A stretch of DNA of 62,555 nt from Bacteroidales bacterium (GTDB lineage Bacteria > Bacteroidota > Bacteroidia > Bacteroidales > UBA932). The stretch lies in contig JAFZZW010000053.1 in the NCBI GenBank assembly GCA_017615615.1, positions 1-62,555 of the forward strand, in the 5' to 3' direction. Positions 15,958-59,309 of the stretch are shown here, one piece after another. The position numbers and the translations under genes are program-made. The notes beneath the pieces were generated by a model, which was given only the letters and a program-made list of their open reading frames with translations, ran no database searches and was not told the origin of the DNA. The first letter of the stretch is position 1, and the number at the start of each line of letters is the position of its first letter.

Positions 15958-17568
15958 TCAATCCGGAATGTCAAACTTCCACAGTCCCAGATCTTTGAGT
16001 CCGTGGGCAATCATTGAGGCTACTGTTTCGGCTCCCAATTTTGTAAGGTGTGTATTATCCGGCACGAAGTAAGGCTCGGTACCGTCATAGCCGAGGGACA
16101 CGAACAACTGATAAGTAAGTTGGTTAATGTCGATAAGGGCAACGCTCTTTGTCTTTGCTACCGACCGCATTGCATTTGCATAGCTGACAGTCGTCTGATA
16201 AAGTGTCGTATGGGCATCGTTGTACATGCGGCTGTTTACGCTTGTAAGAAGAACGGGTGTAGCACTCTTGCCGCGAATATCATTGATAAACTTGATCAGG
16301 TTCTGGTCGTATGTGCTGCCCGGGTCGGTGTGCCTGTCAGCATCGGTGGAACTGTCGTTGTGGGCGAACATGACGAGCACAAGATCCCCGGCCTGAACAC
16401 CGTTAATCAGCGTCTGCCACTTTCCGCTGTCGATGAAAGATTTGGTACTCGCTCCGCTTGCTCCGCGGTTGACGACCGTTACGTCACCGCCGCCGAGCGC
16501 TGCTGCCAGACACATTCCCCATCCTGTGCGGGAAGATGTTGCGGAGTATTCGCAACAGAGAGAGTCACCTGCCAGATGCAGCGTAGGTTTGCGCATTGCG
16601 TTAGGCGAAATTATGCCTGCATTGGTGTACTGTCCGCGCTTCACCACGACTGCATTCTTGCTGCTGAGGACATAGGGCTCGCCGGTCGCAGCATCCTCAG
16701 CGGCGGCATCGCCGGCAAACGGAGTGACCGTAAGCGTCAGGTGGTGATATGTACCGGCAGGAAGGACGGCGAACAGGGTGCCGGCTTCGTAGCCGCTGCC
16801 GTTGAAGCGTGTGTTGACAGTAAGGAACTGCGACCCGTCGGCAACTATACGCGTCCTGGGTTCATCTCCGGAGTAATCGATCTGGATTTCACCGGCAAGG
16901 TTTTCGTCGGCAGAGAAGGTGACGGACTTGATCGTCGCATGCCCGCCCTCGCCGGCAGGAATGGTGAAACGGATGTATCCCATGGCATTGCGGAGCGTAG
17001 CGTCGCCGGGTTTCATCACGGCTATGTTGGCCTCCTGGGCAAAGGAGTTGGGGCTGGAGATATTCTGAGGATTGATGACCCGGAGACTGCTTCCGGCGAA
17101 GACGGCACGGCCGGCGCTTCCAGCTTTTGTCTGAAACTGAATCGAGCCTCCGGTGCCGATCGGCTCGTAGCCGGCACCGAACGAATCGGTCGTCGAACTC
17201 TCCAGGACAATGGCGCTCTGATCTTCGGCCGCAACCTTTCCGGACCAGAGAACCCACTGGACTTCCGATCCTTCCGAGACAGTCCCGGAGAATGCCCTGG
17301 TGGCACTCTCCGATGTATCTTCGCTGGTGAAGACGTTCTTGACGCCCTTGCTGTCGAAGACATAGAGAACCCTGTCCTGGGCGCAGGAAGACCATTGGAT
17401 TGCGGAACCGCCCTCGACGTAGGTTTTGGAGCCGACCGATTCGCCGGTCATGCTTTCAAAACCGGCCTTGATGACAATGTTGTCAACCGGTTTGTCCACG
17501 TTGATTTGGTGAGTGCAGGAAAACAGCGAGAGCAGCAGCGCCGGAAACAACAAAAAGCGATTGTTCAT
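15958..17568 (-). CDS. Modular lipoprotein: F module plus SGNH (rhamnogalacturonan acetylesterase-like) esterase
   Basis: A 536-residue lipoprotein (Cys18 in LLLSLFSC). Residues about 25-325 form the F module: KTYVEGG...IQWSS, VLYVFDSKGVKNVFTS, LRVINPQNIS, ANIAVMKPGDATLRNAMGYIRFT, TLFAVLPAGTYHHLTLTV and VVVKRGQYT. Residues about 335-536 are an SGNH hydrolase with LAGDSLC (Ser nucleophile), NRGASG, MFAHND (Asn of block III) and DNTHLT (catalytic Asp/His). The arrangement fits carbohydrate esterases that deacetylate pectin. It lies 9 bp downstream of the glycan-binding gene in the SusC/D operon. No missing catalytic residue was seen. Confidence 0.87.
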   Translation of the reverse strand: MNNRFLLFPALLLSLFSCTHQINVDKPVDNIVIKAGFESMTGESVGSKTYVEGGSAIQWSSCAQDRVLYVFDSKGVKNVFTSEDTSESATRAFSGTVSEGSEVQWVLWSGKVAAEDQSAIVLESSTTDSFGAGYEPIGTGGSIQFQTKAGSAGRAVFAGSSLRVINPQNISSPNSFAQEANIAVMKPGDATLRNAMGYIRFTIPAGEGGHATIKSVTFSADENLAGEIQIDYSGDEPRTRIVADGSQFLTVNTRFNGSGYEAGTLFAVLPAGTYHHLTLTVTPFAGDAAAEDAATGEPYVLSSKNAVVVKRGQYTNAGIISPNAMRKPTLHLAGDSLCCEYSATSSRTGWGMCLAAALGGGDVTVVNRGASGASTKSFIDSGKWQTLINGVQAGDLVLVMFAHNDSSTDADRHTDPGSTYDQNLIKFINDIRGKSATPVLLTSVNSRMYNDAHTTLYQTTVSYANAMRSVAKTKSVALIDINQLTYQLFVSLGYDGTEPYFVPDNTHLTKLGAETVASMIAHGLKDLGLWKFDIPD

Positions 17569-17577
17569 GATTTATTT

Positions 17578-18864
17578 CTATTCGTTGGCCGCAGGGGTCC
17601 ATGTAATGGGATAAAGGGAAATCTTTGCCACGCCGCCGAAAACATATACGGTGGCAGCGTCATCGATGCCCATCAAGGCGTCTCTGGTGACGTCGATCGT
17701 TACCCTGTTCTCTTCGTTCTTCTCCTTGATGGTGGGGGTGACGGTGACATTGTTCTCGGACAAATAACTGAACGTCGTCACTCCCATCTTGGTAGTCTTG
17801 ACGGCGACGAAAAGCTTGGGCGAAGTGGATCCGGAGAGCCTGACGATGAAGCTGAGGCTCCCGGGCTTGTTGACGTCGAAACGCAGATAACGGTTAAGGG
17901 GGAAATTACGGGCGTAGTTTGTCTTGTCCCAACTGTTGCAGGCGGAAAGCGTAACCCTGTCGCCTGCCGATTCGAACAGGACGTCCGGACCATAGGTGAT
18001 GCCGTCTACGGTATATTCCGTGTCTGCGGGAACCTTATCGCCCGGAGCCCATCCTGCGGCGGCAAAAGCTTCCGCAGAAACAGTGGACGTCCTCGGTCTG
18101 GCAGGGGTGTATCCGTAATCGAATGCATCTTTGTTGACAGGCCATTCATAGGCGGAGGTCGCGAAAGAACCCCGGACCCAGCTGGAAGGCTTAAGCCCGT
18201 CCTCTTCGTTTATGCCGCGGACGCGATAGTAGAACTTCCTGATGGGGAATTCCATGGTAAACGGGATCTCGGTCACTGACTTCACTATCTTCGGGCAGTA
18301 GAGATTCTCCTTGAAAGGTTCCCCGCTGGTGGGCATCGGTTCTTTGTAAATCTCTATCTCGTACTGCTTCACGTTGGCGGCCTGGGTCCATGAGAATTTG
18401 ACCGACGTGTAAGTGGCCACGGCCTTGGCATCCGCGGGCCTGACGCAAGTATGCTCGGGATCCACTCCCGTCATCACATAGCCGCATGTCCAGCGGGAAG
18501 GCTTTTTCCCCGCCAACTCGTTGATCGCCCTCAGGCGCATGTAGCATGGGGTCTCATCCGGACCGATGAACGTGTACGGAAACTCCTCGAATACATCCCT
18601 CTTTATAAGGTCCGTATCATTGACCTCATCATCGGCGGGAAGAGGCTCGGAATAGACCTCAAGTTCAAACTTCTCCGCATCCGGGAAGGATTTCTCGCAG
18701 TTCACGGTTACGCTGACGTTCTCCACCTTGAAGCGTACTTCGACGGGCGCGAGGCACTGGTCGAATTCAATCTGGTCGTAGATGACCACGTCGGGATCCT
18801 TGCTGCACGACAGGAGACCAAGCCCCAGAAGTATCAGTATTGCATATCTGTTAAACGATTTCAT
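17578..18864 (-). CDS. SusE-position surface glycan-binding lipoprotein with two Fn3-like repeats and a C module
   Basis: A 428-residue lipoprotein (lipobox LGLLSC). After Cys there are two related beta-sandwich repeats: FELEVYSEPLP...CYMRLRAINE and YEIEIYKEPMP...FYYRVRGINE, each closing with KPSRW or KPSSW. From about 225 comes the C module (WPVNKDAFDYGY, FDVNKPGSLSF, DDAATVYVFG, YPITWTPA) that is also found in the proteins at 24012-25598, 47222-49633 and 57813-59309. Position directly after SusD is typical of SusE-like glycan-binding proteins. Ligand unknown; binding is inferred from position and fold. Confidence 0.75.
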   Translation of the reverse strand: MKSFNRYAILILLGLGLLSCSKDPDVVIYDQIEFDQCLAPVEVRFKVENVSVTVNCEKSFPDAEKFELEVYSEPLPADDEVNDTDLIKRDVFEEFPYTFIGPDETPCYMRLRAINELAGKKPSRWTCGYVMTGVDPEHTCVRPADAKAVATYTSVKFSWTQAANVKQYEIEIYKEPMPTSGEPFKENLYCPKIVKSVTEIPFTMEFPIRKFYYRVRGINEEDGLKPSSWVRGSFATSAYEWPVNKDAFDYGYTPARPRTSTVSAEAFAAAGWAPGDKVPADTEYTVDGITYGPDVLFESAGDRVTLSACNSWDKTNYARNFPLNRYLRFDVNKPGSLSFIVRLSGSTSPKLFVAVKTTKMGVTTFSYLSENNVTVTPTIKEKNEENRVTIDVTRDALMGIDDAATVYVFGGVAKISLYPITWTPAANE

Positions 18865-18876: not shown

Positions 18877-20670
18877 TTAGAATGTATAACCATAATCGTT
18901 CTGGAGAACGCCCATATTGGAAGTGATGACAGAGGCCGGGATGGGGCGGTACATGTTCATGTCGGGATCGGCGAGGAAAAGATTGTCGATCCTCTTCTGG
19001 CTCAGCGTAGAGAAGAATGTGCGCCTGTGCCATCCTCCATCCGGATCCTCGACTGTCATATCAAGCGTTTCTCCGGGTTCCAGTCCGTACATCTCCGCGT
19101 CGATTCCGTCTTCTTTCACCCTCCAGTAGATATTGTCGTTGTAACCCGACCACTTGCCGGTGCGGTCTCTCATGTTCTGCAGTTCAATCTTGTGCAGTTC
19201 AAGGGTTTCCTTGAGGATGCCCCAGCGGATAAGGTCCTGGCGGCGGAGAAGCTCTCCGCACAACTCGAAGGCGCGCTGGTCCTTGACGGCATCGAAGAAG
19301 AGTTCCTTGTCGACAAGGGCGGAAAGGTAGTCGTCCGCGAGCTCTTCGCTCCTGTAGGCACGCACCAGGACGGGACGCATATAGGCTTTGGCGCGGTCAA
19401 GATACCCCAGCTCGTTGGCTATTTCGGCCGCCATTAGCAGGACATCCGCATAGCGAAGGTAGGGGAACTTGGCTCCGTCTTCCGACGCGTTGCTGGTTAT
19501 AGGCTGCCGGATCATCCAGTCGAGGCGGAACTTGCCGTTATACCAGGTGGAGCAGGCATTGCTGTTCCAGTTGGGGCCGCCGTCGGTGCCGTACTGGTAG
19601 GGGATGCATGTAACGTTGCGCCGGGTGTCGTTCTTGTCGAATTTGAAATAAAGCACGGGGCTTGGGCCGACCCTTCCGCCTGTGATACCGAAGTTGTATT
19701 TCGTATTGGGAACGGAGTTGCGCACAAGGTGCTGGCCGCGGGTGTCCGAGAAAGGCAGACCGAAAATGACTTCCTTGCCGTATTCGGCATGAAGGTCGCA
19801 GTACCATTTCCAAAGGTCCTCGAAATTGTCGAAGAGAGAGAGTCCGGCGTTGTTGATAATCTCATCCAGCGCTTCCAGGGCCTGGGGATACAACACCTCC
19901 GCCTGCAATTCGGGGTCCGTGGACTTGCGGACGGTTCCGAAGGCTCCCGTATTGACCTTCCCTTCGTCGGGACGGCAGGAATAGCCGGACGCCTGAAGGG
20001 CGAGTCGTGCATACATGCCGAGGGCGCAGGCCTTGCCGGGAACGGTAATCCGGTCCTGCTTCCAATCCATATAGCCTGCAGCCTTCTGCAGGTCGCCGAG
20101 CAGCTGTTTGTAAATGACGTCCTTGTCGGACTTGGGAAGGTAGATCGTTTCCTGCGTTACAGGCTTGAAACGCGCAGGCACCTCGCCGTAGACATTGAGC
20201 AGGTCGGCGTACAGAAGGGCGCGGGCCGTCAGGGCCTCACCGTACAAAGCGCCCATCCTGGGCTTGTTGTCGATGTCGCCATACAGCTCCAGATTCTCGA
20301 TGCAGATATTAGCCCTTTCTATACCTTTGAAATTCCCGGAATACAAGTATGCCTCGTCCGTTTTGTCGAACATGCTGTTCGTAGGCGACATCTTGTACTG
20401 GCTGAAGTTGACTTTCTCTATGTCGGAAAACTCCTTGTTCAGATCCACGTCCGTATTGGTGCCGTAGCCGTCCAGGAAGTCTGTGCGGTACGAAGCAGTC
20501 ATGATGTAGGACTCGTAGATGCTGTTGAGGGCATAACGGGCCAGGGTTTCGTTGGAGAATACCGCCATGTCATCATACGTGGACTTGGCTGTCTGGTTGA
20601 GGATGTCATCCTCTTCGCTGCAAGCGACGGCCAGGCATAAAAGAACGAATAATCCAAATGCTTTTTTCAT
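18877..20670 (-). CDS. RagB/SusD family nutrient-uptake lipoprotein
   Basis: A 597-residue lipoprotein (lipobox CLAVACSEED). The SusD fold is recognisable: tetratricopeptide-like helices with ALYGEALTARALLYADLLNVYG, a mid-protein SDTRGQHLVRNSVP loop, and the C-terminal FPYLRYADVLLMAAEIANELG followed by DKELFFDAVKDQRAFELCGELLRRQDLIRWG. SusD proteins form the lid over the SusC barrel and bind the glycan at the cell surface. 12 bp separate it from SusC upstream and 12 bp from the SusE-like gene downstream. Confidence 0.95.
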   Translation of the reverse strand: MKKAFGLFVLLCLAVACSEEDDILNQTAKSTYDDMAVFSNETLARYALNSIYESYIMTASYRTDFLDGYGTNTDVDLNKEFSDIEKVNFSQYKMSPTNSMFDKTDEAYLYSGNFKGIERANICIENLELYGDIDNKPRMGALYGEALTARALLYADLLNVYGEVPARFKPVTQETIYLPKSDKDVIYKQLLGDLQKAAGYMDWKQDRITVPGKACALGMYARLALQASGYSCRPDEGKVNTGAFGTVRKSTDPELQAEVLYPQALEALDEIINNAGLSLFDNFEDLWKWYCDLHAEYGKEVIFGLPFSDTRGQHLVRNSVPNTKYNFGITGGRVGPSPVLYFKFDKNDTRRNVTCIPYQYGTDGGPNWNSNACSTWYNGKFRLDWMIRQPITSNASEDGAKFPYLRYADVLLMAAEIANELGYLDRAKAYMRPVLVRAYRSEELADDYLSALVDKELFFDAVKDQRAFELCGELLRRQDLIRWGILKETLELHKIELQNMRDRTGKWSGYNDNIYWRVKEDGIDAEMYGLEPGETLDMTVEDPDGGWHRRTFFSTLSQKRIDNLFLADPDMNMYRPIPASVITSNMGVLQNDYGYTF

Positions 20671-20682: not shown

Positions 20683-23600
20683 TTAGAAACCAAGATTGAC
20701 GCCCCCGATGATGCCGAGGCTCTTAGGATATGCGGAGTAATCGACTCCGGGAGTCAGAGGAGTGCTGCGGCGGCAGTCCACCTCGGGGTCGTAGCCCGTG
20801 TATTTGGTAAGGCAGAAAAGGTTGGATGCCGTTGCATAAATGCGGAGTTTCGAGATATGCACCTGCTGCGTAATGCTCTGGGGGAGGGTATAACCGACGG
20901 TCAGCGAACTGAAACGCAGGAACGATGCGTCCTCGACGTAATAGTCGGACAGGTAGAACTTGTTCATCGTGGGAGCGAACATCTTGCAGTCCTTGTTGAC
21001 TTCTTCAAGAAGGTCGGGGTCGGTGATGACTTCCCCGGTACTCCAGTCGATGTTGGTCCATGCCGTACCGGGGGCGCAGATAGCCAGAAGCCTGCGGTAC
21101 CTGCCGTCCCTGGTGCGCTGGGTAAGGGACAGCTTGTCGCCGTTGTAGACACTGTTGCCCACCGAATAGTTGAACGAAGCGTTGATGTCGAAACCGTAGA
21201 GGTAAGCGGTGAGGTTGAAGCCGCCCGTCAGGTACGGAAGAGCGGAGCCGATGCGGACTTTGTCTTTGGAATTGATTATGCCGTCGCCCTCGTAGTGATC
21301 GATAACAGGATTGCCGGAAGCATCCAATAAAACGTTGCCGGCTTCGTCTGTTTTGTAAACAGGCTCGGTGGGCTGGTCCTTGAATTTTGGCGATCCGGGA
21401 CGGATGCCGTTCGATTCCAGTACGTTGGTGGCGTCCGCGACCCCTTCCTTCAGCTTCCATGAGGGAAGACCGGTATTGGAGTTGATGTTCATGTTGAAAT
21501 CATCGACCATATACCAGCCGTCGCTTTCGTAGCCGTAAATCACGCCGAGCGGCTCATTCTCCTTGACCAGATACTCCCATCCGATGCTGTTCTGGATTTT
21601 GGATTCGTTCTCGATCTTTTCCAGGCCGCCGAGAGAAATCACCTTGTTCTGGTTGAACGCGGCGTTGCCGGACAGGGTCAGGCCGAAATTCTTCTTCTCC
21701 AGAAGTACGCCGCGCAGCGAGATCTCCACGCCCTGGTTGAGAACGGAACCTATGTTCCTGTATTGCGATGAATAGCCTACGCCGGAGAGCGGGAAGTTGA
21801 TGAGAAGGTCCTTGTTGGTGTTGTGATAGAGCTCAATGGTGCTGCTCAGGCGCTGCTTGAAGAAGGCCATGTCGAGTCCGATGTTGTGGGAGAGGGTGGT
21901 CTCCCACTTGAGGTCCGCATTGGGCATGACGGTTTTTGCGGTGATGCGGTTAGTGACACCGTCGATCCGCGCTTCCTGTGCGGTGATGAACTGACGGAAT
22001 ACCGATCCGGACGGAATGCGGTTGTTGCCGGCGGCGCCGAAGCTGTAGCGGAGCTTGAGCAGATCGACGTTCCTGACCCCCTTGAGCCAGGGTTCGTTGG
22101 TTATGTTCCACGAAACGGCGGTGGAAGGGAAACATCCCCACTTGTGTCCCGGAGCGAATTTACTGGAACCGTCCGCGCGGATGGCGGCAGAGACGGAATA
22201 CCTGCCGTCGAAGACATAGTTTGCACGCCCGAAGAATGACAGCAGTACTTCATTCTCGGCATAAGAGAGGGTAGCGGAAACGATGTCGGAGGCTGAACCG
22301 CGGTAACGGCGGGCCATATCCGCATCGTAGAAGGCCGGAAATCCTTCGGCAACGACCGTCTCCGTACGGGACTCCTTGTAGCTCAGTTCCTGACCGGCAA
22401 GGAAATCCAGACGGTGGCGCTTGTCTTCGAACACCTCACCGAAATTGTAGGAGAGAGTATTCACGTTACGATAGGTGCGGCTGTAGCTGGTTTTGTTGTC
22501 TGTGGTCGGATGGTTCTTGACGGTGGCTTTCTCGCGTACATAGTAGGAACTCAGGCCATAGTAGCGTTCCTGAATCTCCTGCCAGTTGTCAAGCCCCCCC
22601 TCAACCTTGAGCTTCATGTTGGGGATGATGGTCCAGACCATGCTGCCGCTGATGTTCATATTCTCCCTCTGGCGGTGGTTGTCGTTGTCGATCACGTTGC
22701 GGACGGGGTTGGAGCCGAAATCGGCGCTGTAAATGTCGTAATCCTCGAGATCCTGCAGGTAGTTCATGGGAATCGGGGAGTACTTCAATGCGCCGAGCAG
22801 GCGGCCAGTGCCGCTGCCGCCCTTGTCGTTGACGGAGTTGGAGCCGGCGCCCTCGATAGTCGTGGAGGAGAGACGCATCTGGAAATTGAACTCCAGGTTC
22901 TTGACGGGGTTGTAGTAGGTGCGGAAGGACAGGTTGTTGCGGTGGTACGAAGAATAGATCATGATGGCGTCTTCGTCCATGCGTCCGAAGCTGGCCGACC
23001 ACCGGACCTTGTCCGAGCTGCCGCTGAGGCTGACGAAGTGGTTCATAGTAGTGCCCGTGCGGCCGAAGAGGCGCTTCCGCCAGTCGTTGCCTTCGAAATT
23101 CTTGTACAACTCCATGTCCTTGAATATGCCGAAGCGGTCGGTGTACGCGGTCGGGGTATTCCAGATCATGGCGTTCTCATAGACTGACTGGGCGAACTGG
23201 TAGGGCGTCATAAGCTCATAGGCGTCCATGTTCGCCATCTTCTTGATACCGCCGTAGCCGTCGTAATTGACGCTGATCTTGCCGCGCGAGCCCTGGTTCG
23301 TGGTGATAAGGACCACACCGTAAGCGCCGCGGCTACCGTAGATAGCCGTGGAGAAGGCGTCCTTAAGTACGTCGACGCTCTTGATGTCCTGGGCGTTGAT
23401 GTCGCTGATGCTGTTGACCGGGAAGCCGTCCACGATATAGAGCGGGGAGGCATCCTGGGTAATGGAGCCTGTGCCCCGGACGCGGATCTGGACATCGGCG
23501 TCCGGGTCGCCCTCGGTGGTCTTCACCTCGACGCCGGCCAGCTTGCCGGTCAGCGCGGATGAAAAGTTGGGTGCGGGAATGGATTTGATGTCCTTGTTGT

Positions 23601-23985
23601 CGGCCGAGGCGACGGCCCCCATCAAATCCCTGCGCTGGACTTGTTGATAACCGATTACAACGGTTTCATCAAGAAGGTTGACGTCCTCCTCCATCATTAC
23701 GTTGATGGTGTTCCGGCCGGCGATGGCCATCTCGATCTCCTTGAGGCCAAGGCAGGAAAAGACGAGAGTCTTCGCACCGTTGCTGTTGTTTATGGAATAG
23801 CTGCCGGCATTGTCGGTCATGACACCGTTGGAGGTGCCCTTCAGGTACACGGAAACGCCGGGGAGCGGATTCTTGTCCTGGTCTACGACGGTTCCGGTAA
23901 TGGTCTGTGCAAAAGCCTCCGCTCCGCAAAGGAAAACCAATGCGGAGAGGAGGAATTTTACAAAACCGGAAGTATTTTTAAACAT
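20683..23985 (-). CDS. SusC/RagA family TonB-linked outer membrane transporter
   Basis: An 1100-residue outer-membrane protein with signal peptide (to AFAQ), a carboxypeptidase-regulatory-like domain at about 28-110 (GTVVDQDKNPLPGVSVYLKGTSNG), a plug starting QVQRRDLMGAVAS and including IRVRGTGSITQDASPLYIVDGFPV...NAQDIKSVDVLKDAFSTAIYGSRGAYGVVLITT, and a long beta-barrel. It imports the glycan bound by SusD using TonB energy. Length and domain order are normal. It lies 26 bp downstream of the F-C lipoprotein gene, all probably one transcript from 28 kb. Confidence 0.96.
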   Translation of the reverse strand: MFKNTSGFVKFLLSALVFLCGAEAFAQTITGTVVDQDKNPLPGVSVYLKGTSNGVMTDNAGSYSINNSNGAKTLVFSCLGLKEIEMAIAGRNTINVMMEEDVNLLDETVVIGYQQVQRRDLMGAVASADNKDIKSIPAPNFSSALTGKLAGVEVKTTEGDPDADVQIRVRGTGSITQDASPLYIVDGFPVNSISDINAQDIKSVDVLKDAFSTAIYGSRGAYGVVLITTNQGSRGKISVNYDGYGGIKKMANMDAYELMTPYQFAQSVYENAMIWNTPTAYTDRFGIFKDMELYKNFEGNDWRKRLFGRTGTTMNHFVSLSGSSDKVRWSASFGRMDEDAIMIYSSYHRNNLSFRTYYNPVKNLEFNFQMRLSSTTIEGAGSNSVNDKGGSGTGRLLGALKYSPIPMNYLQDLEDYDIYSADFGSNPVRNVIDNDNHRQRENMNISGSMVWTIIPNMKLKVEGGLDNWQEIQERYYGLSSYYVREKATVKNHPTTDNKTSYSRTYRNVNTLSYNFGEVFEDKRHRLDFLAGQELSYKESRTETVVAEGFPAFYDADMARRYRGSASDIVSATLSYAENEVLLSFFGRANYVFDGRYSVSAAIRADGSSKFAPGHKWGCFPSTAVSWNITNEPWLKGVRNVDLLKLRYSFGAAGNNRIPSGSVFRQFITAQEARIDGVTNRITAKTVMPNADLKWETTLSHNIGLDMAFFKQRLSSTIELYHNTNKDLLINFPLSGVGYSSQYRNIGSVLNQGVEISLRGVLLEKKNFGLTLSGNAAFNQNKVISLGGLEKIENESKIQNSIGWEYLVKENEPLGVIYGYESDGWYMVDDFNMNINSNTGLPSWKLKEGVADATNVLESNGIRPGSPKFKDQPTEPVYKTDEAGNVLLDASGNPVIDHYEGDGIINSKDKVRIGSALPYLTGGFNLTAYLYGFDINASFNYSVGNSVYNGDKLSLTQRTRDGRYRRLLAICAPGTAWTNIDWSTGEVITDPDLLEEVNKDCKMFAPTMNKFYLSDYYVEDASFLRFSSLTVGYTLPQSITQQVHISKLRIYATASNLFCLTKYTGYDPEVDCRRSTPLTPGVDYSAYPKSLGIIGGVNLGF

Positions 23986-24011: not shown

Positions 24012-25598
24012 CTAGTTCTGGGTTTCTTTGGCAGTGGGAGTCCATTTGATGGGGAAGTGATGGACCTGGATATTCTGCTTGGAAGTACAATAAGCATAGA
24101 AATAAAGCGTCGCGGCCTCGTCGATGCCGACAAGCTTGTCTTTAGGTACCACGAATTCCACATAACTCTCGGGATGGTTCCAGGGCTGACGGGTAAAGTC
24201 GATAGGAACTGCGTGTTCCTCAGGCAGATACTCTTCACATTTCTCGGTGGCGACATAATCTATAAGCACCTCGGCGGTCGTATCTCCGGCGACGGTCTTG
24301 ACAAGGACGACCTTGTATCCGACACCTCTCTTTGCATACTCAGCACTCTGTACACAGAGGAAATACTGGAATTTTCCGGGCCTGTTGATCTTCCAGGAGA
24401 AGCAGCGGTTCTGGGGAACGATATTGTCATATGCATCATCCTCAAAGTCCATCCAGGTATCAGGACCGGGAACGCCTCCGGTACTCCAGCGGTTGCTGTT
24501 GAAAGTGAGAACATAGTAGTATGTCACCCTGTCCAGCGTGCACTGTGCCAGTCCGTCTTTCGTGAGCTTGGTATTACTCACAATCTGAGGATCATAAGCA
24601 AGACGCTCTTCAGAAGGATATGTAGCCTCATGGGTCACACCCTTGGCATAACCATAGTCGAAAGCAGTAGGATCGTTCGGCCACTCGATATCATCATCCT
24701 CTTCTTCCTCGTTGGGATCGACGGAAGGCAGTTCGCCGGCTTCTGTGAATTTGCCGCGCTCAACTATTACGTCGCCCTTTGCGGACAGGGTGAAAGGTGC
24801 GGCCGCCATGGCGTTTTTCTGGGTGCGGTCCGCATTTTCGGCAAACGGAGTGATGGTGATCTTGAGATTATGGTAGGTCCCCGGGGCAACTGCCAAATAG
24901 TAAGAGCCGGGCTCGTAACCGCCGTTGAAATTGACGTCGGCGGTTACAGTCTTCTGGCCGGTACCGGTGATGGTGGCGACAGGGTCGGAGCCGGAATAAT
25001 CGACCTGCAGCGGACCTGCGAGGTACTCGTCCGCCGTGATGCTGACGTTCTTGATGCTGGCGTAACCGCCTACATCGGGAATGGTATAACGAATATAGCC
25101 GAGCACATTGCGGAGCGAGGAGTCGCCGGGCTTCATGACGGCGAGGTTCACATTGTAGGCAAATGAGCTCGCGTGGTCATTGTACTGGGTAGGAGGGATG
25201 ACAAGGCCGCTGATGACGTCTCCGTCGACTGTCGTAGCGTCAGCGGAATTGCCGGAGGCCAGCTTGCCGGACCAGACGGTAAAACCCTGCTGCGCCTCGA
25301 CGGGCCAGGTGGCGCAGGAGAACTCTCGTACCGCCTCGGGAGTGGTGGAGGCAGATTCGAAGTTGTACTTGTTGCAGTCGGCGTCGAAGACATAAATGAT
25401 CTGGTCGACCGTGCTGGCGCCCCACCAGACAGTGCCGGCCTGAGGGTCTTTCACAAAAGTTTTTGTGTCGGCGAGACGATCTTCAAATCCGAGGGAAATA
25501 GTCTTTACGGTCGTGATGCCGGTACTCTGTTCCTTGTTGCAGGAAACGGCGGCCACAAGGGCTGCAGCAAAAGCTGCGAAAGCGATAATTTTTTTCAT
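24012..25598 (-). CDS. Modular lipoprotein: F module plus C module
   Basis: A 528-residue lipoprotein (Cys20 in VAAVSC). The F module spans about 25-300: KTFVKDPQAGTVWWG, IIYVFDADCNKYNF, NLAVMKPGDSSLRNVLGYIRYT, YYLAVAPGTYHNLKITITPFA, VIVERGKFTEAG. An acidic linker EEEEDDD follows. The C module is about 315-528: WPNDPTAFDYGY, FSWKINRPGKFQYFL, DEAATLYFYA, FPIKWTPTA. No catalytic motif is visible; binding is the best guess. It sits directly upstream of SusC and 16 bp downstream of a 45-residue peptide gene. The same peptide-then-F-C order recurs at 57667-59309. Confidence 0.8.
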   Translation of the reverse strand: MKKIIAFAAFAAALVAAVSCNKEQSTGITTVKTISLGFEDRLADTKTFVKDPQAGTVWWGASTVDQIIYVFDADCNKYNFESASTTPEAVREFSCATWPVEAQQGFTVWSGKLASGNSADATTVDGDVISGLVIPPTQYNDHASSFAYNVNLAVMKPGDSSLRNVLGYIRYTIPDVGGYASIKNVSITADEYLAGPLQVDYSGSDPVATITGTGQKTVTADVNFNGGYEPGSYYLAVAPGTYHNLKITITPFAENADRTQKNAMAAAPFTLSAKGDVIVERGKFTEAGELPSVDPNEEEEDDDIEWPNDPTAFDYGYAKGVTHEATYPSEERLAYDPQIVSNTKLTKDGLAQCTLDRVTYYYVLTFNSNRWSTGGVPGPDTWMDFEDDAYDNIVPQNRCFSWKINRPGKFQYFLCVQSAEYAKRGVGYKVVLVKTVAGDTTAEVLIDYVATEKCEEYLPEEHAVPIDFTRQPWNHPESYVEFVVPKDKLVGIDEAATLYFYAYCTSKQNIQVHHFPIKWTPTAKETQN

Positions 25599-51555: not shown

Positions 51556-52266
51556 TCAATACTTCCAGACACCGAGGTCCTTCAGCCCCTTGGCGACCAT
51601 TCCCGCCACTATCGCGGCTCCTTCTCCGGTAAGGTGGGAACGGTCGTCTTTTGAAGCGTCGCGCTTGTCCCGGACAAAATACGGGGTCGCAGCCTCCAGC
51701 GAACCGAGTTCCTTCAGCCACTGGTATGTGAGCTCCTCCAGGTCTATCACTGGAGTACCGGTCGACGCGCCCAGCGCCTTCATGGCGGCGGGGTAATCGC
51801 CGTGGGTGCGCATGGGATTTCCGTTGCTGTGATAGTAAAGCCGGCACATGCTGGTCACCAGCACCGGGACTCCGCCTTTGGCGCGGGTCTCGTCAATCAT
51901 AGTCTTAAGGTTGGCCTGATAGGTGGTATAAGGGTCCGTCGCGTGAGCTTCGTCGGATTTCTCATCATTTGCGCCGAAATGGATAAGCACGACGTCGCCG
52001 GTGACTATGCCCGCACGGAGCCCGGCCCACCGGCCTTCTTCGATAAACGACTTGGTACTCTCTCCGCCTATTGCATGGTTGCTGATCATGACACCGCCGC
52101 CCAGGGCGTCCGAGAGGCATTCGCCCCAACCGGTCTGGGGGCGGGATTCGGCTCCGTAAACGCAACATCCGGAGTCCCCGGCTATCAGGATCTTGGGAAC
52201 ACGCTCGCAGGTGGCACCTGTAATCAACAGTGCGGCGGCAATCCCACAGAATAAGAATCTTCTCAT
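51556..52266 (-). CDS. Stand-alone SGNH esterase lipoprotein (rhamnogalacturonan acetylesterase-like)
   Basis: A 236-residue protein starting MRRFLFCGIAAALLITGATC, a lipoprotein signal. The SGNH blocks follow almost at once: IAGDSGCCVYG (Ser), NHAIGGEST, IHFGANDE (Asn) and DRSHLTGEG (Asp/His), ending GLKDLGVWKY. It aligns along its length with the esterase parts of 15958-17568 and 47222-49633, which end GLKDLGLWK. The F module is missing, so this is the esterase without its carrier. The ATG at 52266 is chosen because the upstream extension has no signal-peptide character. Confidence 0.85.
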   Translation of the reverse strand: MRRFLFCGIAAALLITGATCERVPKILIAGDSGCCVYGAESRPQTGWGECLSDALGGGVMISNHAIGGESTKSFIEEGRWAGLRAGIVTGDVVLIHFGANDEKSDEAHATDPYTTYQANLKTMIDETRAKGGVPVLVTSMCRLYYHSNGNPMRTHGDYPAAMKALGASTGTPVIDLEELTYQWLKELGSLEAATPYFVRDKRDASKDDRSHLTGEGAAIVAGMVAKGLKDLGVWKY

Positions 52267-52410
52267 ATCGATTTTTAGTAATGGCGGGTAAATGTAGTCA
52301 TTTTTAAGCAAATAGCTGATTATCCGGTCCGGAAAAGACACCAATTTTAAAACCACATCGAACAGTTCAGAATAGTATCGTTAACTTCGCAACCTTGTTT
52401 ATTACAAACC

Positions 52411-54717
52411 ATGACCAACCGCATTCTAATTGGATTAAGCACATTGTTTGTCCCTCTTCTCCTTTGCTGTACGCAGGAGGAGTCAGAGCCCATCTGTCCG
52501 GGTGGCGGCAAACAGATCGTGATCACAGCCGGGTTCGAGCAGCAGGCCCCCGCCGGCGCGCAAACCAAAACCTATGTGGCCGGCGGCTCGGAAATCCGCT
52601 GGAGCTCAGCAGGAATTGACAAGGTAATCTACGTCTTCGACAGCGCCGGAAACAAGAACGTCTTCACCAGCACTTCTACGACGGCAGAAGCAGTCCGTAC
52701 ATTTACCGGCACCATCACCGACAACTCAACCATAGAGTATGTCCTTTGGACTGGAAAGAGCTCGGGAAGTGATAAGAGCGAACTTGTCAAGACACCAGGA
52801 GGAGCCGGAACCGAGACCGTCACCTCCGGCGGAAGCGCCTCGTTCACCAAGACTGAATTGCTTCCGGAAGCGTCTATCTTTTCCGGAACCACCCTGGCTC
52901 TGCCCGCAACCCAGACCGTAAATAACTACAACTCTTTCGCGGCAAATGCCAACATTGCGGTGATGAAGGCCGGAGACAGCTGCCTCAAGAGCGTATTCGG
53001 CTATCTCCGGTACAGGATTCCCCTGTCGAACGTGGACAATTATGCCACCATCAAGTCCATCACCATCTCTGCAGATGAAGACATCGCAGGCCGGGTGGAA
53101 ATAAACTATACCGGGGACGAGCCGGTTGCCACCATAGTTGCCAACGGCTCAAAGACCGTCACGGTAAACACCCGCTGGCAGACCAACTCGCCCGCTCATT
53201 ACGAGCCCGGCATTTACTTCGCCGTCCTTCCGGTGGGCACATATCACAATGTGAGCATAGAAATCACACCACTTGCCTACGGCACCTCTACCGATAGTAC
53301 CGCCACCAAAGATCCCTTCACCATCTATTGCCGCGGTGATGTCGTAGTTGAACGCGGCAAATATACGGACCTGGGCACTCTTCCAATAGCTGAATCGGCA
53401 TCCTCCAACCCGGGATTCAAGTTCGACACGGACCTCTTCCAGGAGTTTACCGACCCCGTATCCGGCGTGGTTTCGTACCAGCTCAAGTCCGAAGCCCTTG
53501 GCTGGGACAACTCGCAGTCCCCTTACTACGTGACCAAGGCCATGACCAACGACGAGCGTTTCATCTTCTTCATGGTATCTGCCAATGAATTCAGGCCTTC
53601 CTACCACAGTCTCTCCAAATATGAGCGCTCGGCCAAAATCCTGGACCTGGAGACCAGGAAACTGTATACTTTCTATGCCACGGACGGATGCTATCCATAC
53701 ATGGACCCCGTGAACGACAAGATATATTATTGCATCCTCAACGATACAAGGACTGCCGCCAAGTTCTACATGAGAGACCTTCTGAACGCCCCCGACGTTG
53801 AAGTCCCCCTTGCCGATTTCCCCCAGCAGCTTCTTTCCTCCGGCGGAACAATCAAGAGGGTTTGTTCGCACCTTACCCTTACCCAGGACAAGACCAAGGT
53901 CTTCCTGGATTCCAGGGTGGGAGATACATTCTACCAGGGCCTTCTGGACCTCTACTCCGGCGTCTGGACCGAATGGAGCCACAACAGCGAGGTCAACCTC
54001 ACTCACGGTCAGCTCAACCCCACCAGGGACGATGAAGCCCTGCTTGCCGTTGACGGCTGGGACGACACCAGCGGCGTCCACCACTCCATTGTGAAAGACC
54101 CGGACGGGGAGTTCAACGGAGACGGGACCTATCCCCGCATGCAGATAATGACCTCGGACGGCAACCGCCGGACGATCCGCCCCAGCGATCCCTGGAACGG
54201 CGCCACTCACGACGGCTGGCATCCCGACGGCAATCATCTCTACTGGTGTGCCGGCATGCACTTTGACAACCAGGGCAATCCTATTCTCACCGGCGGAACA
54301 GCCACAGGCGGCTTCCATACCCGCAGCATCCGCAACGAAAGCGAGTATGTGTATTACGTTGTCGGACGGGCCACCCACTGTTTCCTCTCTGAAGACTGGT
54401 TTACAAACGAAAACAAGATGTACGCCGTATATGACGATGACCGTCCTTACGGTCCTTACACGACGGGTTACTACCGCGGCGGCCCCTGGAAAGTCTGGTT
54501 CTACAACGCCCAGACCCAAAAGGAAATAGCCATCTACTCGGGCATGGTTCCTTATGCCATGGATCCCGCGAAGGAGTCCCGAATCCATCCAGACCCTCAC
54601 CCGAATTTCGTAGTGCATGACAAATATGTCATTTGCACCGCATACGGATCCGACGGCAATCTGCATCTCAGCATAACGCCAGTCGACCAGCTTATTACCA
54701 AATCTCTTGAAAACTGA
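52411..54717 (+). CDS. Modular lipoprotein: F module plus PL22-like beta-propeller (second copy)
   Basis: A 768-residue lipoprotein (Cys19/Cys20 in LLLCCTQEE). F module about 25-325: KTYVAGGSEIRWSS, VIYVFDSAGNKNVFTS, ANIAVMKAGDSCLKSVFGYLRYR, IYFAVLPVGTYHNVSIEITPLA, VVVERGKYTDLGTLP. Propeller about 335-768: TDPVSGVVSYQLKSEALG, NLTHGQLNP, GATHDGWHPDGNHLYWC, RATHCFLSEDW, HPDPHPNFVVHDKYVIC. Compared with the copies at 10442 and 25779 it has insertions before and after the HDGWHPDG block. It begins an operon with the LVIVD lipoprotein 5 bp downstream. A weak TAACTTCG box lies at 52382-52389. Confidence 0.75.
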   Translation: MTNRILIGLSTLFVPLLLCCTQEESEPICPGGGKQIVITAGFEQQAPAGAQTKTYVAGGSEIRWSSAGIDKVIYVFDSAGNKNVFTSTSTTAEAVRTFTGTITDNSTIEYVLWTGKSSGSDKSELVKTPGGAGTETVTSGGSASFTKTELLPEASIFSGTTLALPATQTVNNYNSFAANANIAVMKAGDSCLKSVFGYLRYRIPLSNVDNYATIKSITISADEDIAGRVEINYTGDEPVATIVANGSKTVTVNTRWQTNSPAHYEPGIYFAVLPVGTYHNVSIEITPLAYGTSTDSTATKDPFTIYCRGDVVVERGKYTDLGTLPIAESASSNPGFKFDTDLFQEFTDPVSGVVSYQLKSEALGWDNSQSPYYVTKAMTNDERFIFFMVSANEFRPSYHSLSKYERSAKILDLETRKLYTFYATDGCYPYMDPVNDKIYYCILNDTRTAAKFYMRDLLNAPDVEVPLADFPQQLLSSGGTIKRVCSHLTLTQDKTKVFLDSRVGDTFYQGLLDLYSGVWTEWSHNSEVNLTHGQLNPTRDDEALLAVDGWDDTSGVHHSIVKDPDGEFNGDGTYPRMQIMTSDGNRRTIRPSDPWNGATHDGWHPDGNHLYWCAGMHFDNQGNPILTGGTATGGFHTRSIRNESEYVYYVVGRATHCFLSEDWFTNENKMYAVYDDDRPYGPYTTGYYRGGPWKVWFYNAQTQKEIAIYSGMVPYAMDPAKESRIHPDPHPNFVVHDKYVICTAYGSDGNLHLSITPVDQLITKSLEN

Positions 54718-54722: not shown

Positions 54723-57665
54723 ATGAACAGATACTTATTTACAGGATTCGTTTTCGTCCTCTTTGCTCTGGCTTCATGCGAACAGAAGGAGACCCCGGAG
54801 AGTGAAAACCCCGAGGTTGTCAACCGCAGCGAAAAGATTTCCCTCACCCTGGGATTCGAGAACCAGCTTTCGACCGACACAAAAATCCACGTTTCCGGAG
54901 ACAGAATCCTCTGGAGCAGTGGCGATCGAACCGTCTACGTCTTTGACAGCGAAGGCAACAAGAACACATTCACCAGCGAGGAAAACACAGTTTCTGAGAC
55001 CCGCACCTTCGAAGGCACCATCACCGCCGGCTCCGAAATCGCGTATATCCTCTGGACCGGCAAGAACAGTAATGACGAAAGCGCCCTCTCCACAGTATAT
55101 GGCGGCCCTTTGACAGGTGAAGGAATTACCGAAGGCAACGGCGGCTCCGTGGTTGAATGGGACAGGACCAAATCTTCCGGCTTCTTCACGCACGAAATCA
55201 TCAGCGGCAGCACGCTGCAGGTCGTCAACCCCCAGAATATATCCACCACCAACACCTTTGCCTCCAATGCCAACATCGCCATAATGAAAAAAGGCGACAC
55301 CGTATTCCGGAACGTATTCGGCTATATCCGTTTCACTGTTCCCCAGGGTGCCGACGGCAACGCCGCCATCAAGTCCGTGTCTTTCACGGCCGACGAGGAC
55401 ATCGCAGGCAAAATCCAGATAGAGTATGCCACAGACGAGCCGGTAGCAACCATCGTCGAAGACGGGGTTAAAACCGTTACTGTGAACATGCGCTGGAATG
55501 AAAAAACCAACCGATATGAGGACGGAACGTTCTACGCCGTCGTCCCTCCGGGAACGTACAACAACCTGAAAATCATCGTCACCCCCTTTGCCGACGGCGC
55601 CTCCGCACAGGATGCCGCCACCGGGACTCCCTTTACGCTTGCCAGCGCAAGGGCTGTCACGATAAAGAGGGGCAAGTACATCAACTGCGGAACGCTTCCG
55701 GGGACCAAACCAGGCTCGTCGGACGTAATCGGCCAGGTTGCCGAAGTGCTTCCCGGCCATATCGGCGGCATCTGTGTCGAGGGCAATGTGCTCTATGCCG
55801 GCAGCAATGGAAAGATCTATGTTTACGACATCAGCACCCCCATGTCGCCCAAGCTCTCCACCACCCTGTCAATCCGTGGCAACGCCCGTCAGATTACCGC
55901 ATATAACGGAAGGCTCTACGTAACATCCCGCGACTCCGGCGTTTGGATATTCACCATCGGGAATCCCCTGAGGCCGATGTTCTCCAAGCGCTACGACACA
56001 GTTGAGCTTGCAACCGGCATTGACGCCGCCGGAAACTGCATGTTCGTAGGAGAGCGGCAGAACGGCGTGGAGTTCGTGGACGTGTCCGACGAAACGTCAC
56101 CGAAACATATCAGGATAATCAAGACGGACGAGTCCCAGAGCGTATTCTATCACAACGGATACCTCTACTCCGGGGAGTGGGCCGCCGGAAAGGTCACAAT
56201 CTTCAATGCCCAGCAACTGCATAATATCCAGAAACTGAAGACAATCAACCTTCAGGGCTACGGAGACGGTCTTTGGGCTACCGGGAACAGACTGTATGTC
56301 TCTACCGGCCACCATCACCGCAACGAAACGCCTTCAACGGTGAATGGCGACGGGCACGGTGTGGAAATCTGGGATGTAGAAAACCCGGCGGATCCCAGGT
56401 TCATCTCCCGTGTAGAATTCGACAATTTCTACCAGTCCGGAATCGACTACTGGCTCCCCCGCCCGTCAGGAGACGGCAAGACGCTGTTCTGCGGCGACGT
56501 CTTCAACGGCCTTTACATTGTGGATATCACCGATGAGAACAACCCCTCCATCATCAAGCACTACACCCTGAGTGCAGGAAAGGCGGTAACATCCCTTGCC
56601 CTTGCCGACGGCGTCGTTTACGTCGCAACTTCCGGAGACGGCCTCCTTGCCATGAAATGCTCCCGTGCAAAACCTTGCACCCGTGACCGCGGAACACTGC
56701 CTACCGGTAATTTCGCAAGATACGATTACACCACCTCCGGAGACAGGTTCACCGTCTGGAAGCCCACCGGACGCGGTGCCGTCCACAGCGTAGCCGCCTG
56801 GGGAGACGCCCTCTTCGTGGGATGCGGCGACGCCGGATTCTCCGTTGTGAAAGTCACAAGGAACGGTAACGACGTTACGGCAACCCAATACTCCAGGCTT
56901 GACCTGCCTTTTGCCGGCGGCGTTGCAGTGCGCGGCAACAGGCTGTACGTATCAACCGGAGAAAACGGCATTGCCGTGTACAACATCTCCAGCGGGCCGG
57001 TCCTTACCTATGTCGGCCGGATCAAGGAAGACCTTGAGACGAACGAAGTGAACCGCTTCAGCGGCTGGGTAAGCGCGCCTAACGACAAATACGTCGTGAA
57101 CGCATCCCGTTATTCCGGCTTCCAGTTCATATCCGTAGGAGGCACCGACTCGGAGCCTGTCTTTACCTACCGCGGCTCAAAGAGCCAGAACCTGAACTAC
57201 AACAAGTTCATTTCCGAGGAAGTCTGCGACGGAGACCGTCTTCCTTACGCCACCCGCGACGGACTTATCTGGATAGACCTCTCCTCCACGGAATCCATAA
57301 GCACATCCGCCCTCCAAACGAACATCAAGAGCACGGTTTCCAGCGGCGTCACCAACTTCAAGGACGGCAAGGCCCTGGTGTCCCTGAGCAATAAGTTCTG
57401 CCTCGTTGACAGCGGAGCCGGTTCCGGAACCGAGATCGGCAACAACTCAGCCTTCACGGGCATCCCCCGCTGGGACGGCAACAATACTGTGCTTATAACC
57501 AATTTCTCCGGCCAGTACGTCACAAAGGTTGACTTCACAAACGTGAACAGCCCCTCGATCCTCTGGCAGGAAACCGATATGTCCGGCAATCCCGAGCCGG
57601 GAATCATACTCAACGGAAAAGCAATAATCCCCTGTGGTTATCAGGGACTGTTAATAGAGAAATAA
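54723..57665 (+). CDS. Modular lipoprotein: F module plus LVIVD-repeat beta-propeller
   Basis: A 980-residue lipoprotein (Cys19 in FALASC). F module about 25-330: IHVSGDRILWSS, TVYVFDSEGNKNTFTS, LQVVNPQNISTTNTFASNANIAIMKKGD, TFYAVVPPGTYNNLKIIVTPFA, VTIKRGKYINCGTLPG. The rest, about 335-980, is built of LVIVD-type repeats (GNVLYAGSNGKIYVYDIS, NGRLYVTSRDSGVWIFTI, GVEFVDVSDETSPK, FNGLYIVDITDENNPS, NRLYVSTGENGIAVYNIS), long enough for more than one propeller. No catalytic signature is seen; binding or scaffold function is inferred. Only 1 nt separates its stop from the next small gene. Confidence 0.83.
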   Translation: MNRYLFTGFVFVLFALASCEQKETPESENPEVVNRSEKISLTLGFENQLSTDTKIHVSGDRILWSSGDRTVYVFDSEGNKNTFTSEENTVSETRTFEGTITAGSEIAYILWTGKNSNDESALSTVYGGPLTGEGITEGNGGSVVEWDRTKSSGFFTHEIISGSTLQVVNPQNISTTNTFASNANIAIMKKGDTVFRNVFGYIRFTVPQGADGNAAIKSVSFTADEDIAGKIQIEYATDEPVATIVEDGVKTVTVNMRWNEKTNRYEDGTFYAVVPPGTYNNLKIIVTPFADGASAQDAATGTPFTLASARAVTIKRGKYINCGTLPGTKPGSSDVIGQVAEVLPGHIGGICVEGNVLYAGSNGKIYVYDISTPMSPKLSTTLSIRGNARQITAYNGRLYVTSRDSGVWIFTIGNPLRPMFSKRYDTVELATGIDAAGNCMFVGERQNGVEFVDVSDETSPKHIRIIKTDESQSVFYHNGYLYSGEWAAGKVTIFNAQQLHNIQKLKTINLQGYGDGLWATGNRLYVSTGHHHRNETPSTVNGDGHGVEIWDVENPADPRFISRVEFDNFYQSGIDYWLPRPSGDGKTLFCGDVFNGLYIVDITDENNPSIIKHYTLSAGKAVTSLALADGVVYVATSGDGLLAMKCSRAKPCTRDRGTLPTGNFARYDYTTSGDRFTVWKPTGRGAVHSVAAWGDALFVGCGDAGFSVVKVTRNGNDVTATQYSRLDLPFAGGVAVRGNRLYVSTGENGIAVYNISSGPVLTYVGRIKEDLETNEVNRFSGWVSAPNDKYVVNASRYSGFQFISVGGTDSEPVFTYRGSKSQNLNYNKFISEEVCDGDRLPYATRDGLIWIDLSSTESISTSALQTNIKSTVSSGVTNFKDGKALVSLSNKFCLVDSGAGSGTEIGNNSAFTGIPRWDGNNTVLITNFSGQYVTKVDFTNVNSPSILWQETDMSGNPEPGIILNGKAIIPCGYQGLLIEK

Positions 57666-57666: not shown

Positions 57667-57804
57667 ATGACCAGAATGCAATATCTGTCGCCCTCGACTA
57701 AAACAGTTTACATCAAAGCTGCAAGGCCTGTTTGCACATCATCGTACGGAATCGAAAAAATGGAGTCTTCCGGGGACATTCTCGAATGGCGCGTGGAAGA
57801 ATAG
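57667..57804 (+). CDS. 45-residue conserved small peptide upstream of an F-C lipoprotein (second copy)
   Basis: ATG at 57667, TAG at 57802-57804. It begins MTRMQYLSPSTKTVYIK, has one Cys (RPVCTSS) and ends SSGDILEWRVEE. Same length (45 residues), same (I/L)SP near the N-terminus, one mid-protein Cys and same (S/D)SG..(I/L)EW near the C-terminus as the peptide at 25615-25752; both directly precede an F-C gene. No export signal. The larger overlapping frame from 57732 begins inside it and is not needed. Confidence 0.68.
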   Translation: MTRMQYLSPSTKTVYIKAARPVCTSSYGIEKMESSGDILEWRVEE

Positions 57805-57812
57805 TGATGACC

Positions 57813-59309
57813 ATGAAAAAGTTGTTATTTTTTGTCACGGTATTGATTACCGCCGCTTCCTGCACCAAAGAGCTGGAGCCCAGCGCCGCCGATAATCACA
57901 CCCTTACCATTTCTGCCGGTTTCGAACGGGACGCGGCCGATGGAACCAAGACCTATATGAAGGACTATGCCGCAGGAACCATCTGGTGGGGCAACACCAC
58001 CCAGGACAAGACCCTCTTCGTATTTGACGGTTCCGACACCAAGAACACCTTCACCAGCAACTCCGAGCAGTCCGAGGCTATTCGCCGCTTCACCTGCGAC
58101 AACTGGAGCGGCGGGGACTGGAAACTGGCCGTATGGACCGGCCGGAATGCCGGAAGCGACCAGTGTTCATTAAGCGGAAACATACTTACAGGCTCCACCC
58201 TGAAGGTTAATAATCCGCAGACCGTGAGCAACTCCAATTCCTTCAACAACACCTCCAACATTGCGGTGATGAAGCCCGGTGACGGTTCTCTGAAGAATGT
58301 CTTCGGTTACCTCCGTTTCACTCTTCCCACTTATCCCGAAACCACCCTTGCCGCAATCAAGTCCGTGGTCCTGAGTGCCGACGAGAACGTTGCAGGCGAC
58401 GTCCGGATTGATTATTCCGGAGCAAATCCTGTCACCACAATCATTGCCAACGGTTCCACGGCGCTCACGCTCAACACCCGTTACAAAGACAGCGGTCCTA
58501 CAGGATATGAGGCAGGCACCGTGTTCATGATACTTCCTGCAGGCACATATCACCACGCCAAGCTTACTATCACTCCCTTCACCTCAACGCCGAACACCCA
58601 GGACGCCACCACCGGCACTCCCTTCACCCTGGATTGCAACGGAGACCTGGTAATACAGCGCGGAAAATATACCGACTGCGGAACCCTTCCCGCCAAAAAG
58701 CCATGGCCAAACGACAGTGACGCCTTTGACTACGGACTTTCTGCAGGAAGTACCCGTAAGGCAAACATATCCGGTCTGTTAGGCGCTCAGGGCGCCATCA
58801 GCGAACCTGTCCTTCATAACGGAGTAACCTATGGCGGCCCGGGAATGAATTATTACGGGAACAGGATACTGAGCCAGAAGGTTGCATCCGAGTGGAGTAC
58901 GGAATACCCCGACGTTATCCCGGCGTCCCGCTACTTCTCCTTCAAGATAAACCGTCCCGGCACGGTACGCTTCTATCCCGCCCCGGCAAGTAAGGACGGA
59001 GATGTCCTGAGGGTGCCCACCTATCACCTTGCAGTTGTCACCATCGTGGACGGAGTAACCACGGCTAAGATTGTCCGGACGTTTACCCCGGAGGCATCAG
59101 ATATCGCTGACGGGACTATCTCTGCAAACCGCCAAGACGCAAACGTCTATTCGGATGATTGGCAACACTTCTGGGTTTCCATTGCTATTAGTGAAGAGGA
59201 TATCAAGGGCATAGACTCCGCCGCCACAGTATATCTTTACCATAGGAATACCGCCGTAAATACTCTGGCCGTCAATTACTGGCCGCTCGAGTGGACCGTG
59301 GCCGACTAA
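57813..59309 (+). CDS. Modular lipoprotein: F module plus C module (second copy)
   Basis: A 498-residue lipoprotein (MKKLLFFVTVLITAASCTKE, Cys17); an ATG at 57807 two codons upstream is an alternative start. F module about 20-285: KTYMKDYAAGTIWWG, TLFVFDGSDTKNTFTS, LKVNNPQTVSNSNSFNNTSNIAVMKPGD, VFMILPAGTYHHAKLTITPF, LVIQRGKYTDCGTLP. C module about 290-498: NDSDAFDYGLSAG, FSFKINRPGTVRFYP, DSAATVYLYHRN, YWPLEWTVAD. Closest in design to 24012-25598, sharing even the WWG and KPWPND/WPND linkers. Last gene of the cluster starting at 52411. Confidence 0.8.
   Translation: MKKLLFFVTVLITAASCTKELEPSAADNHTLTISAGFERDAADGTKTYMKDYAAGTIWWGNTTQDKTLFVFDGSDTKNTFTSNSEQSEAIRRFTCDNWSGGDWKLAVWTGRNAGSDQCSLSGNILTGSTLKVNNPQTVSNSNSFNNTSNIAVMKPGDGSLKNVFGYLRFTLPTYPETTLAAIKSVVLSADENVAGDVRIDYSGANPVTTIIANGSTALTLNTRYKDSGPTGYEAGTVFMILPAGTYHHAKLTITPFTSTPNTQDATTGTPFTLDCNGDLVIQRGKYTDCGTLPAKKPWPNDSDAFDYGLSAGSTRKANISGLLGAQGAISEPVLHNGVTYGGPGMNYYGNRILSQKVASEWSTEYPDVIPASRYFSFKINRPGTVRFYPAPASKDGDVLRVPTYHLAVVTIVDGVTTAKIVRTFTPEASDIADGTISANRQDANVYSDDWQHFWVSIAISEEDIKGIDSAATVYLYHRNTAVNTLAVNYWPLEWTVAD

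Follow-up and report, generated by a model that had tools for sequence, protein, structure and literature searches.

The surface lipoproteins of the Bacteroidales need a stalk between the lipid and the working part, and the described systems closest to the one reported here are pilins and N-terminal spacers. The precursors of type V pilins are cut at an Arg or Lys of the first loop and lose their first strand; the anchor Mfa2 is without a cutting site, and trimming has not been reported for the tip protein Mfa5 (PMC5789003). Tip pilins often possess an extra C-terminal domain and are cut by a surface clostripain (PMC12632263). BACON (PF13004) and DUF1735 (PF08522) have been proposed as membrane-bound N-terminal spacers, and the Ig-like domains of SusE/F have also been described (PMC11216935); that article contains no word beginning with "fimbri". 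In this study, a stretch of 62,555 nucleotides of an uncultured Bacteroidales bacterium (UBA932; GenBank assembly GCA_017615615.1, contig JAFZZW010000053.1, positions 1 to 62,555 of the forward strand), below called the window, was analysed. It encodes seven lipoproteins with one common N-terminal module, here named F, which probably represents a diverged lineage of the type V (Mfa/FimA) pilin superfamily, adapted as an N-terminal stalk for general display. The putative pilin ancestry, the scale of the family and a near-invariant Lys/Arg at the pilin cutting position are new, while N-terminal spacers and domain-bearing tip pilins were already known. The F-payload architecture was not found in the open PMC literature searched (with Mfa_like_1, fimbrillin-like and joint terms), and absence beyond that is not claimed.

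When a profile built from the seven F parts was searched with filters off against the six-frame stop-to-stop pieces (of at least 50 aa) of the window, it recovered the seven proteins with domain E-values of 2e-106 or better. The next-best piece scored E 3, so these are the only F carriers in the window. In pairwise BLASTP comparisons the F parts shared 36-54% identity (E 7e-51 to 6e-109), and chance similarity among them is ruled out by both sets of scores. F is a lipidated module of ~270-310 residues that begins at the lipobox Cys, and the alignment of the seven has 44 invariant columns, this Cys included. The profile and alignment place F at 16609-17517 (- strand) in the F-SGNH protein (open reading frame (ORF) 15958-17568), 24729-25541 (-) in the first F-B protein (ORF 24012-25598), 27018-27947 (-) in the first F-PL22-like protein (ORF 25779-28001), 47273-48079 (+) in the F-SGNH-BACON-B protein (ORF 47222-49633), 52468-53382 (+) in the second F-PL22-like protein (ORF 52411-54717), 54777-55697 (+) in the F-LVIVD protein (ORF 54723-57665) and 57861-58688 (+) in the second F-B protein (ORF 57732-59309). 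The likely start of the last one, 57813, is an in-frame Met within a TTG ORF beginning at 57732. One common N-terminal part in seven lipoproteins, as proposed in the initial annotation, is therefore borne out, and so are the classes of C-terminal payload named there, i.e. SGNH, PL22-like, LVIVD and a novel beta-rich module (B), with two additions: the F-SGNH-BACON-B architecture and the presence of B on a protein that lacks F.

The SGNH/GDSL payload occurs in two of the seven F proteins, at 15961-16608 (-; PF13472, E 1.1e-15) and 48119-48673 (+; residues 300-484 of its protein, E 2.2e-16), with 59 and 61 bits against a cut-off of 32.9. The former, esterase-like, resembles the pectin acetylesterase PaeY weakly, far below the cut-off of the PaeY model in the NCBIfam/Pfam scan. 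The single LVIVD propeller (55698-57662, +) matches PF08309 at E 1.2e-13. PL22-like propellers are found in two proteins (25782-27017, -, and 53383-54714, +) and are 44% identical to each other. They were tentatively assigned with a five-sequence profile that matches the solved oligogalacturonate lyases 3pe7 (E 5e-4) and 3c5m (E 7e-3) over ~144 of its 418 positions. A single PL22-like sequence gave no match to solved structures in a PDB sequence search, and the two payloads met no Pfam family at E 1 except for one chance match. Module B is present in three proteins: at 24015-24728 (-), a copy sharing 27% identity with the window's other B modules, and, by the B profile, at 49031-49624 (+) and 58689-59306 (+). 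Against PDB sequences its best match was Crov588 (E 0.002), with no stretch passing on its own. In the protein at 47222 a BACON domain (48776-49021, +; residues 519-600; PF19190, E 1e-12; PF13004, E 4.6e-10), separate from F, stands between the SGNH domain and B.

F itself resembles no described family directly. In Pfam and NCBIfam scans of the seven proteins no model passed its cut-off on F, and the matches seen there were of chance level (rRNA_methylase, E 0.024; NAGLU_N, E 0.07). A known enzyme-specific domain is thereby excluded, as are BACON and DUF1735, neither of which matches the F part. Mfa_like_1 (PF13149), the pilin family, scored above cut-off on none of the seven and matched nothing else on their contig; among 28 F and near-F proteins it gave no match at E 0.1, and of the 29 wider F-like proteins of the same genome that were scanned it recognised one, at the cut-off. 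The relationship became visible by profile-profile comparison, in which 48 F-like sequences aligned by hhalign with 26 PF13149 sequences at 93.8% (E 1.7e-7), with 175 columns collinear over the greater part of either profile; the single control reached 0.2%. The F-like set was 48 of 67 wide segments, and the 19 omitted include the PF13149-matching L006 and L007, deliberately excluded against circularity. The other set held 26 of the 33 PF13149 places (omitted were L002, L005-L007, L092, L103 and L104). An iterated HMM search of the 641 ORFs of the fetched loci started at 63 ORFs, reached 84 in round four and 83 in round five, and joined three of the seven PF13149 places of the genome; against 1282 reversed or shuffled decoys the best E-value in any round was 0.018. 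The 84 ORFs include proteins seen in two loci and have 73 distinct N-termini. These iterated and profile-profile comparisons suggest that F forms a strongly diverged lineage within the Mfa/fimbrillin (type V pilin) superfamily. The assignment of F to this fold in the initial annotation, to be checked with a profile of the seven, is thus supported at the level of the superfamily and by way of the enlarged family, and does not emerge from the seven sequences alone (7.3% by hhalign). The accompanying view that this fold, familiar from pilins, is not known to carry glycan enzymes in general was too strong, since 8 of 26 PF13149 loci have at least 228 residues behind the domain. A second Pfam family was present in two of these eight (the Pfam scan of PF13149 ORFs covered the eight, L006 and L007). 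Payload fusions are therefore not limited to F.

Copies of the module are numerous in this genome (1.93 Mb, 72% complete), whose contigs are denoted here by C-numbers (C9, C14, C43, C48, C68, C69 and C79), the window's contig being C21. A wide F-like profile gave 51 matches in it. As the default filters of HMMER hid several true matches, the fetched stretches of the genome were also searched with filters off, which yielded 44 F-like ORFs besides the seven F proteins of the window and four of C48, ~55 in total, of which four are not among the 51. A lipobox is present in 43 of the 44, the remaining one being cut at its 5' side, and 79 of the 84 F-like ORFs of the iterated search start directly behind the lipobox Cys (the remaining five are truncated at the edge of a locus); the lipobox rule was our own and misplaces the Cys in L072:2111-4273. 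At least 150 aa follow F in 40 of the 44 ORFs (median 540). A payload family was recognised in 22 of the 29 scanned individually, and these payloads comprise DNA/RNA endonuclease, endonuclease/phosphatase fold, calcineurin phosphoesterase, M64 peptidase, GLUG repeats, Big_2 and Lcl_C, GDSL, cleaved adhesin, beta-helix, pectate lyase and SusG-like alpha-amylase. A further 52 wide relatives (9 of this genome, the rest of the same genus), two of which match PF13149, add LRR_5, tyrosine phosphatase and others. The wider F-like family carries far more than the four payloads of the initial annotation, whose reading of F is partly supported and in extent was too modest. The pilin-derived module appears to serve as a stalk genome-wide, which would offer a starting point for the study of dozens of unnamed surface proteins; Pfam recognises the module in 1 of the 29 scanned. 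Two F-like loci may be mentioned separately. On C9 (L192, 305-2824) an F-like module precedes a SusG-like alpha-amylase with SusG_C, and on C79 (L187, 14500-29965) four large F-like lipoproteins lie within ~15 kb, two of them of 1657 and 1706 aa and one with phosphoesterase and GDSL parts.

The N-terminus of F-like proteins follows a pattern: a lipobox, often an acidic stretch (on average 2.6 Asp or Glu in positions 2-12), a hydrophobic segment resembling a strand and finally T-[K/R]-T. The K/R column is kept in 72 of 73 N-termini and in 104 of 106 distinct ones (74 K, 30 R). Searched without an alignment, the motif occurs in 101 of 106, whereas 200 shuffles gave 43 on average and 54 at most. 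In the window, this column is invariant: Lys48 of the F-SGNH protein (codon 17425-17427, -) stands at the position of the type V pilin processing site, as does the residue in the other six, e.g. Lys53 of the second F-PL22-like protein (codon 52567-52569, +; K34 of F). By eye, PF13149 pilins have a similar K/R place. The features of a type V pilin precursor (lipobox, first-loop K/R) are thus present in the F family, as sequence features only. They raise the testable question of whether the kept Lys/Arg is still cut and the proteins enter pili. If so, F proteins would be type V tip pilins: the precursor would be cut after the conserved Lys/Arg, its first strand would leave, a stalk pilin would fill the groove and the pilus would carry the payload at its tip. 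On a shared type V pilus, lyases, esterases, an amylase and nucleases could then act away from the cell as dozens of interchangeable tips. The known cutting of type V pilins at this place, its absence from the anchor Mfa2 (PMC5789003) and the clostripain-cut tip pilins with a frequent extra C-terminal domain (PMC12632263) agree with this explanation, as do a C11 protease encoded in the genome and pilin-like loci on C14 and C68 (recognised by PF13149 matches and by eye). We nevertheless consider it rather unlikely. Neither a stalk nor an anchor gene accompanies the F genes, as the window's contig has no PF13149 match and the window no further F-like module; by eye, the pilin-like loci of C14 and C68 encode their own large proteins that bear domains; ~50 tips would be an odd number for a few stalks; and trimming has not been reported for Mfa5 (PMC5789003). 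The Lys/Arg could instead be structural, e.g. packing on a nearby Trp conserved in 71 of 73 N-termini. As regards C14, three tandem similar lipoproteins of ~790-820 aa (L128, 4275-11471) lie there behind PF13149 pilin-like genes and by eye resemble alternative tip pilins.

Beyond the window, 14 further proteins with F in the strict sense were found in four genomes of one genus (five in the genome of the window, three in G170, five in G268 and one in G233), two of them truncated: L075 by the end of its contig and L076 by a premature stop. One strict-F protein of 318 aa (L074:5693-6646, -) is without a payload and adjoins an F-B protein; it may represent a remnant or a subunit resembling a stalk. 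Of 400 genomes sampled from the genus, with up to five candidates scored in each, 4 gave a strong match to strict F. Among 299 genomes of the family, one, the window's own, had it at E 1e-20 (the other three carriers, which would have matched, were not drawn in this sample), and among 393 genomes of the order two had it at E 1e-10, the second of them carrying half of it. F as a common feature of the Bacteroidales is excluded by this sampling. The F-like expansion is not general either, because the wide profile at E 1e-6 reaches only 5 of 149 genomes of the order.

A tree of the 21 F modules, with 6 of 18 inner branches firmly supported, was compared with the payloads. The first domain after F requires six changes among four states (minimum three), and all eight payload labels require 11 changes, compared with a mean of 14.1 after shuffling, a value as low being reached in 2 of 200 shuffles. 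Within a clade supported by 100/99, SGNH replaces B. Much of the F pattern is therefore whole-gene copying, with some exchange. Payloads are also found without F: in this genome three PL22-like proteins have F and two do not, LVIVD and SGNH proteins without strict F occur, and on C48 an F-B-SGNH protein neighbours a BACON-B-SGNH protein. Judged from these architectures, F acts like an N-terminal spacer that can be exchanged, the role also put forward for BACON and DUF1735. The strongest argument for this role is that identical payload types stand behind F, BACON, Ig-like repeats or nothing. In the display-stalk explanation, the protein would be exported, receive its lipid at the first residue of F, the Cys, and presumably come to lie on the outer face of the outer membrane, where a two-sandwich F would keep the C-terminal payload off the membrane, in the window beside a SusC/D pair. 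Whole genes would be copied, with the payload occasionally swapped behind F and F occasionally swapped for BACON, Ig-like repeats or nothing.

This SusC/D pair is composed of a SusD-type protein (18880-20670, -; PF07980, E 1.4e-25) and a SusC-type TonB-dependent transporter (20686-23985, -; PF13715, PF00593 and PF07715), whose genes sit between those of the F-SGNH and first F-B proteins. The same operon retains a lipoprotein in the SusE position (17581-18864, -), which is without F and ends in B (17581-18153; B profile, E 7e-31 and 1e-31), and thus the suggestion that F is an alternative to a SusE/F-type organisation did not hold. Two other relatives of the payloads lack F in the window, i.e. 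a PL22-like protein (10442-11776, +; assigned by the PL22-like profile, with no Pfam family at E 0.01) and an SGNH/GDSL protein (51559-52356, -; PF13472, E 3.8e-17). A GntR-type regulator, GH36, GH97, GH31 and an FAD oxidoreductase are encoded near the F genes. Contig C48 carries a sister locus with a SusD-like protein (by eye), an F-less SusE-position protein that also terminates in B (E 2e-24; C48:25888-26463) and four F proteins (F-PL22-like, F-LVIVD, F-B and F-B-SGNH). It further encodes a protein with GH88-family and beta-helix parts, the BACON-B-SGNH protein mentioned above and two LVIVD proteins without strict F, one of which begins with a strongly diverged F-like segment (E 2e-4, filters off). 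The order F-PL22-like, F-LVIVD and then F-B or F-SGNH is common to the window, C48 and the genome G170. The Ig-like repeats of the SusE-position proteins and the beta-helix of L074:12816-15542 were assigned by eye, as Pfam gave no match. On C48 the F-LVIVD gene (L071, 6060-9334, -) is split over two frames and may be broken or misassembled. Because B recurs on SusE-position proteins, it is likely a glycan-binding part. The PaeY-like SGNH domains (a weak resemblance), the PL22-like domains and the GH88 neighbour suggest that the payload set of the window is fit for pectic glycans. A more distant copy of B lies on C69.

The proximity of the strict F genes of the window and C48 to SusC/D-type or SusD-like genes would also suit an explanation in which F is itself the glycan binder or attaches to a common partner such as SusC/D, the C-terminal parts being cargo. 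We regard this as improbable: the strict F gene of C43 is flanked by genes of M64-peptidase and phosphoesterase proteins, both with F-like modules; such modules also precede nucleases, phosphatases and a peptidase; and it is B, not F, that the SusE-position proteins have in common with the F proteins. That F is a releasable anchor, cut at the Lys/Arg by a surface protease so that the payload is shed, e.g. to the medium or from vesicles, would fit the conserved residue and the C11 protease, but is very improbable, as payloads such as the SusG-like amylase and B beside SusC/D would be expected to remain on the cell.

The display stalk is the explanation that we favour, and several observations weigh against it. 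The seven F modules of the window alone reach only the 7.3% given above with PF13149, and four of the seven PF13149 places of the genome stay outside the iterated family. No chain of the PDB is matched by the F-like profile at E 10 (the seven-F profile has one chance match, E 0.97), while the PF13149 set finds six sequences, including 3sy6 (a fimbrial protein) and 3ufi; the presumed fold of F is a deduction from profile comparison. The presumed surface location derives solely from knowledge of the family. Many payloads outside the window are not glycan enzymes, and a plain stalk does not account for a Lys/Arg kept in 104 of 106 N-termini.

Two further gene groups of the window may be noted. 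At 32828-36359 (+) a sodium/proton exchanger with TrkA_C precedes a phosphatase of the SpoIIE type that has PDC sensor and HATPase domains, and at 36678-41719 (-) a Cthe_2159 carbohydrate-binding-type protein, a TonB-dependent barrel and a DUF5074 protein are encoded in a run.

In comparison with known systems, F proteins share features with three groups. Like the BACON and DUF1735 spacers, F is N-terminal, lipidated, present in many copies, followed by varied C-termini and partly located in polysaccharide utilization loci (PULs), and BACON even takes its place in the BACON-B-SGNH protein; unlike them, F comprises ~300 residues of putative pilin type, in which neither spacer finds a sequence match. 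With the SusE/SusF-type surface glycan-binding proteins the common element is B, in which the SusE-position proteins of the window and C48 loci end just as the F-B proteins do, whereas the former appear (by eye) to use Ig-like repeats as the stalk. From the type V (Mfa/FimA) pilins of PF13149, F differs in that the window copies are not recognised by this model, in that F genes sit with SusC/D and enzymes and without stalk or anchor genes, and in its many copies. The likeness to these pilins consists of the remote profile link, the start at the lipobox and the first-loop Lys/Arg, and with the tip pilins F proteins share an additional C-terminal domain (PMC12632263).

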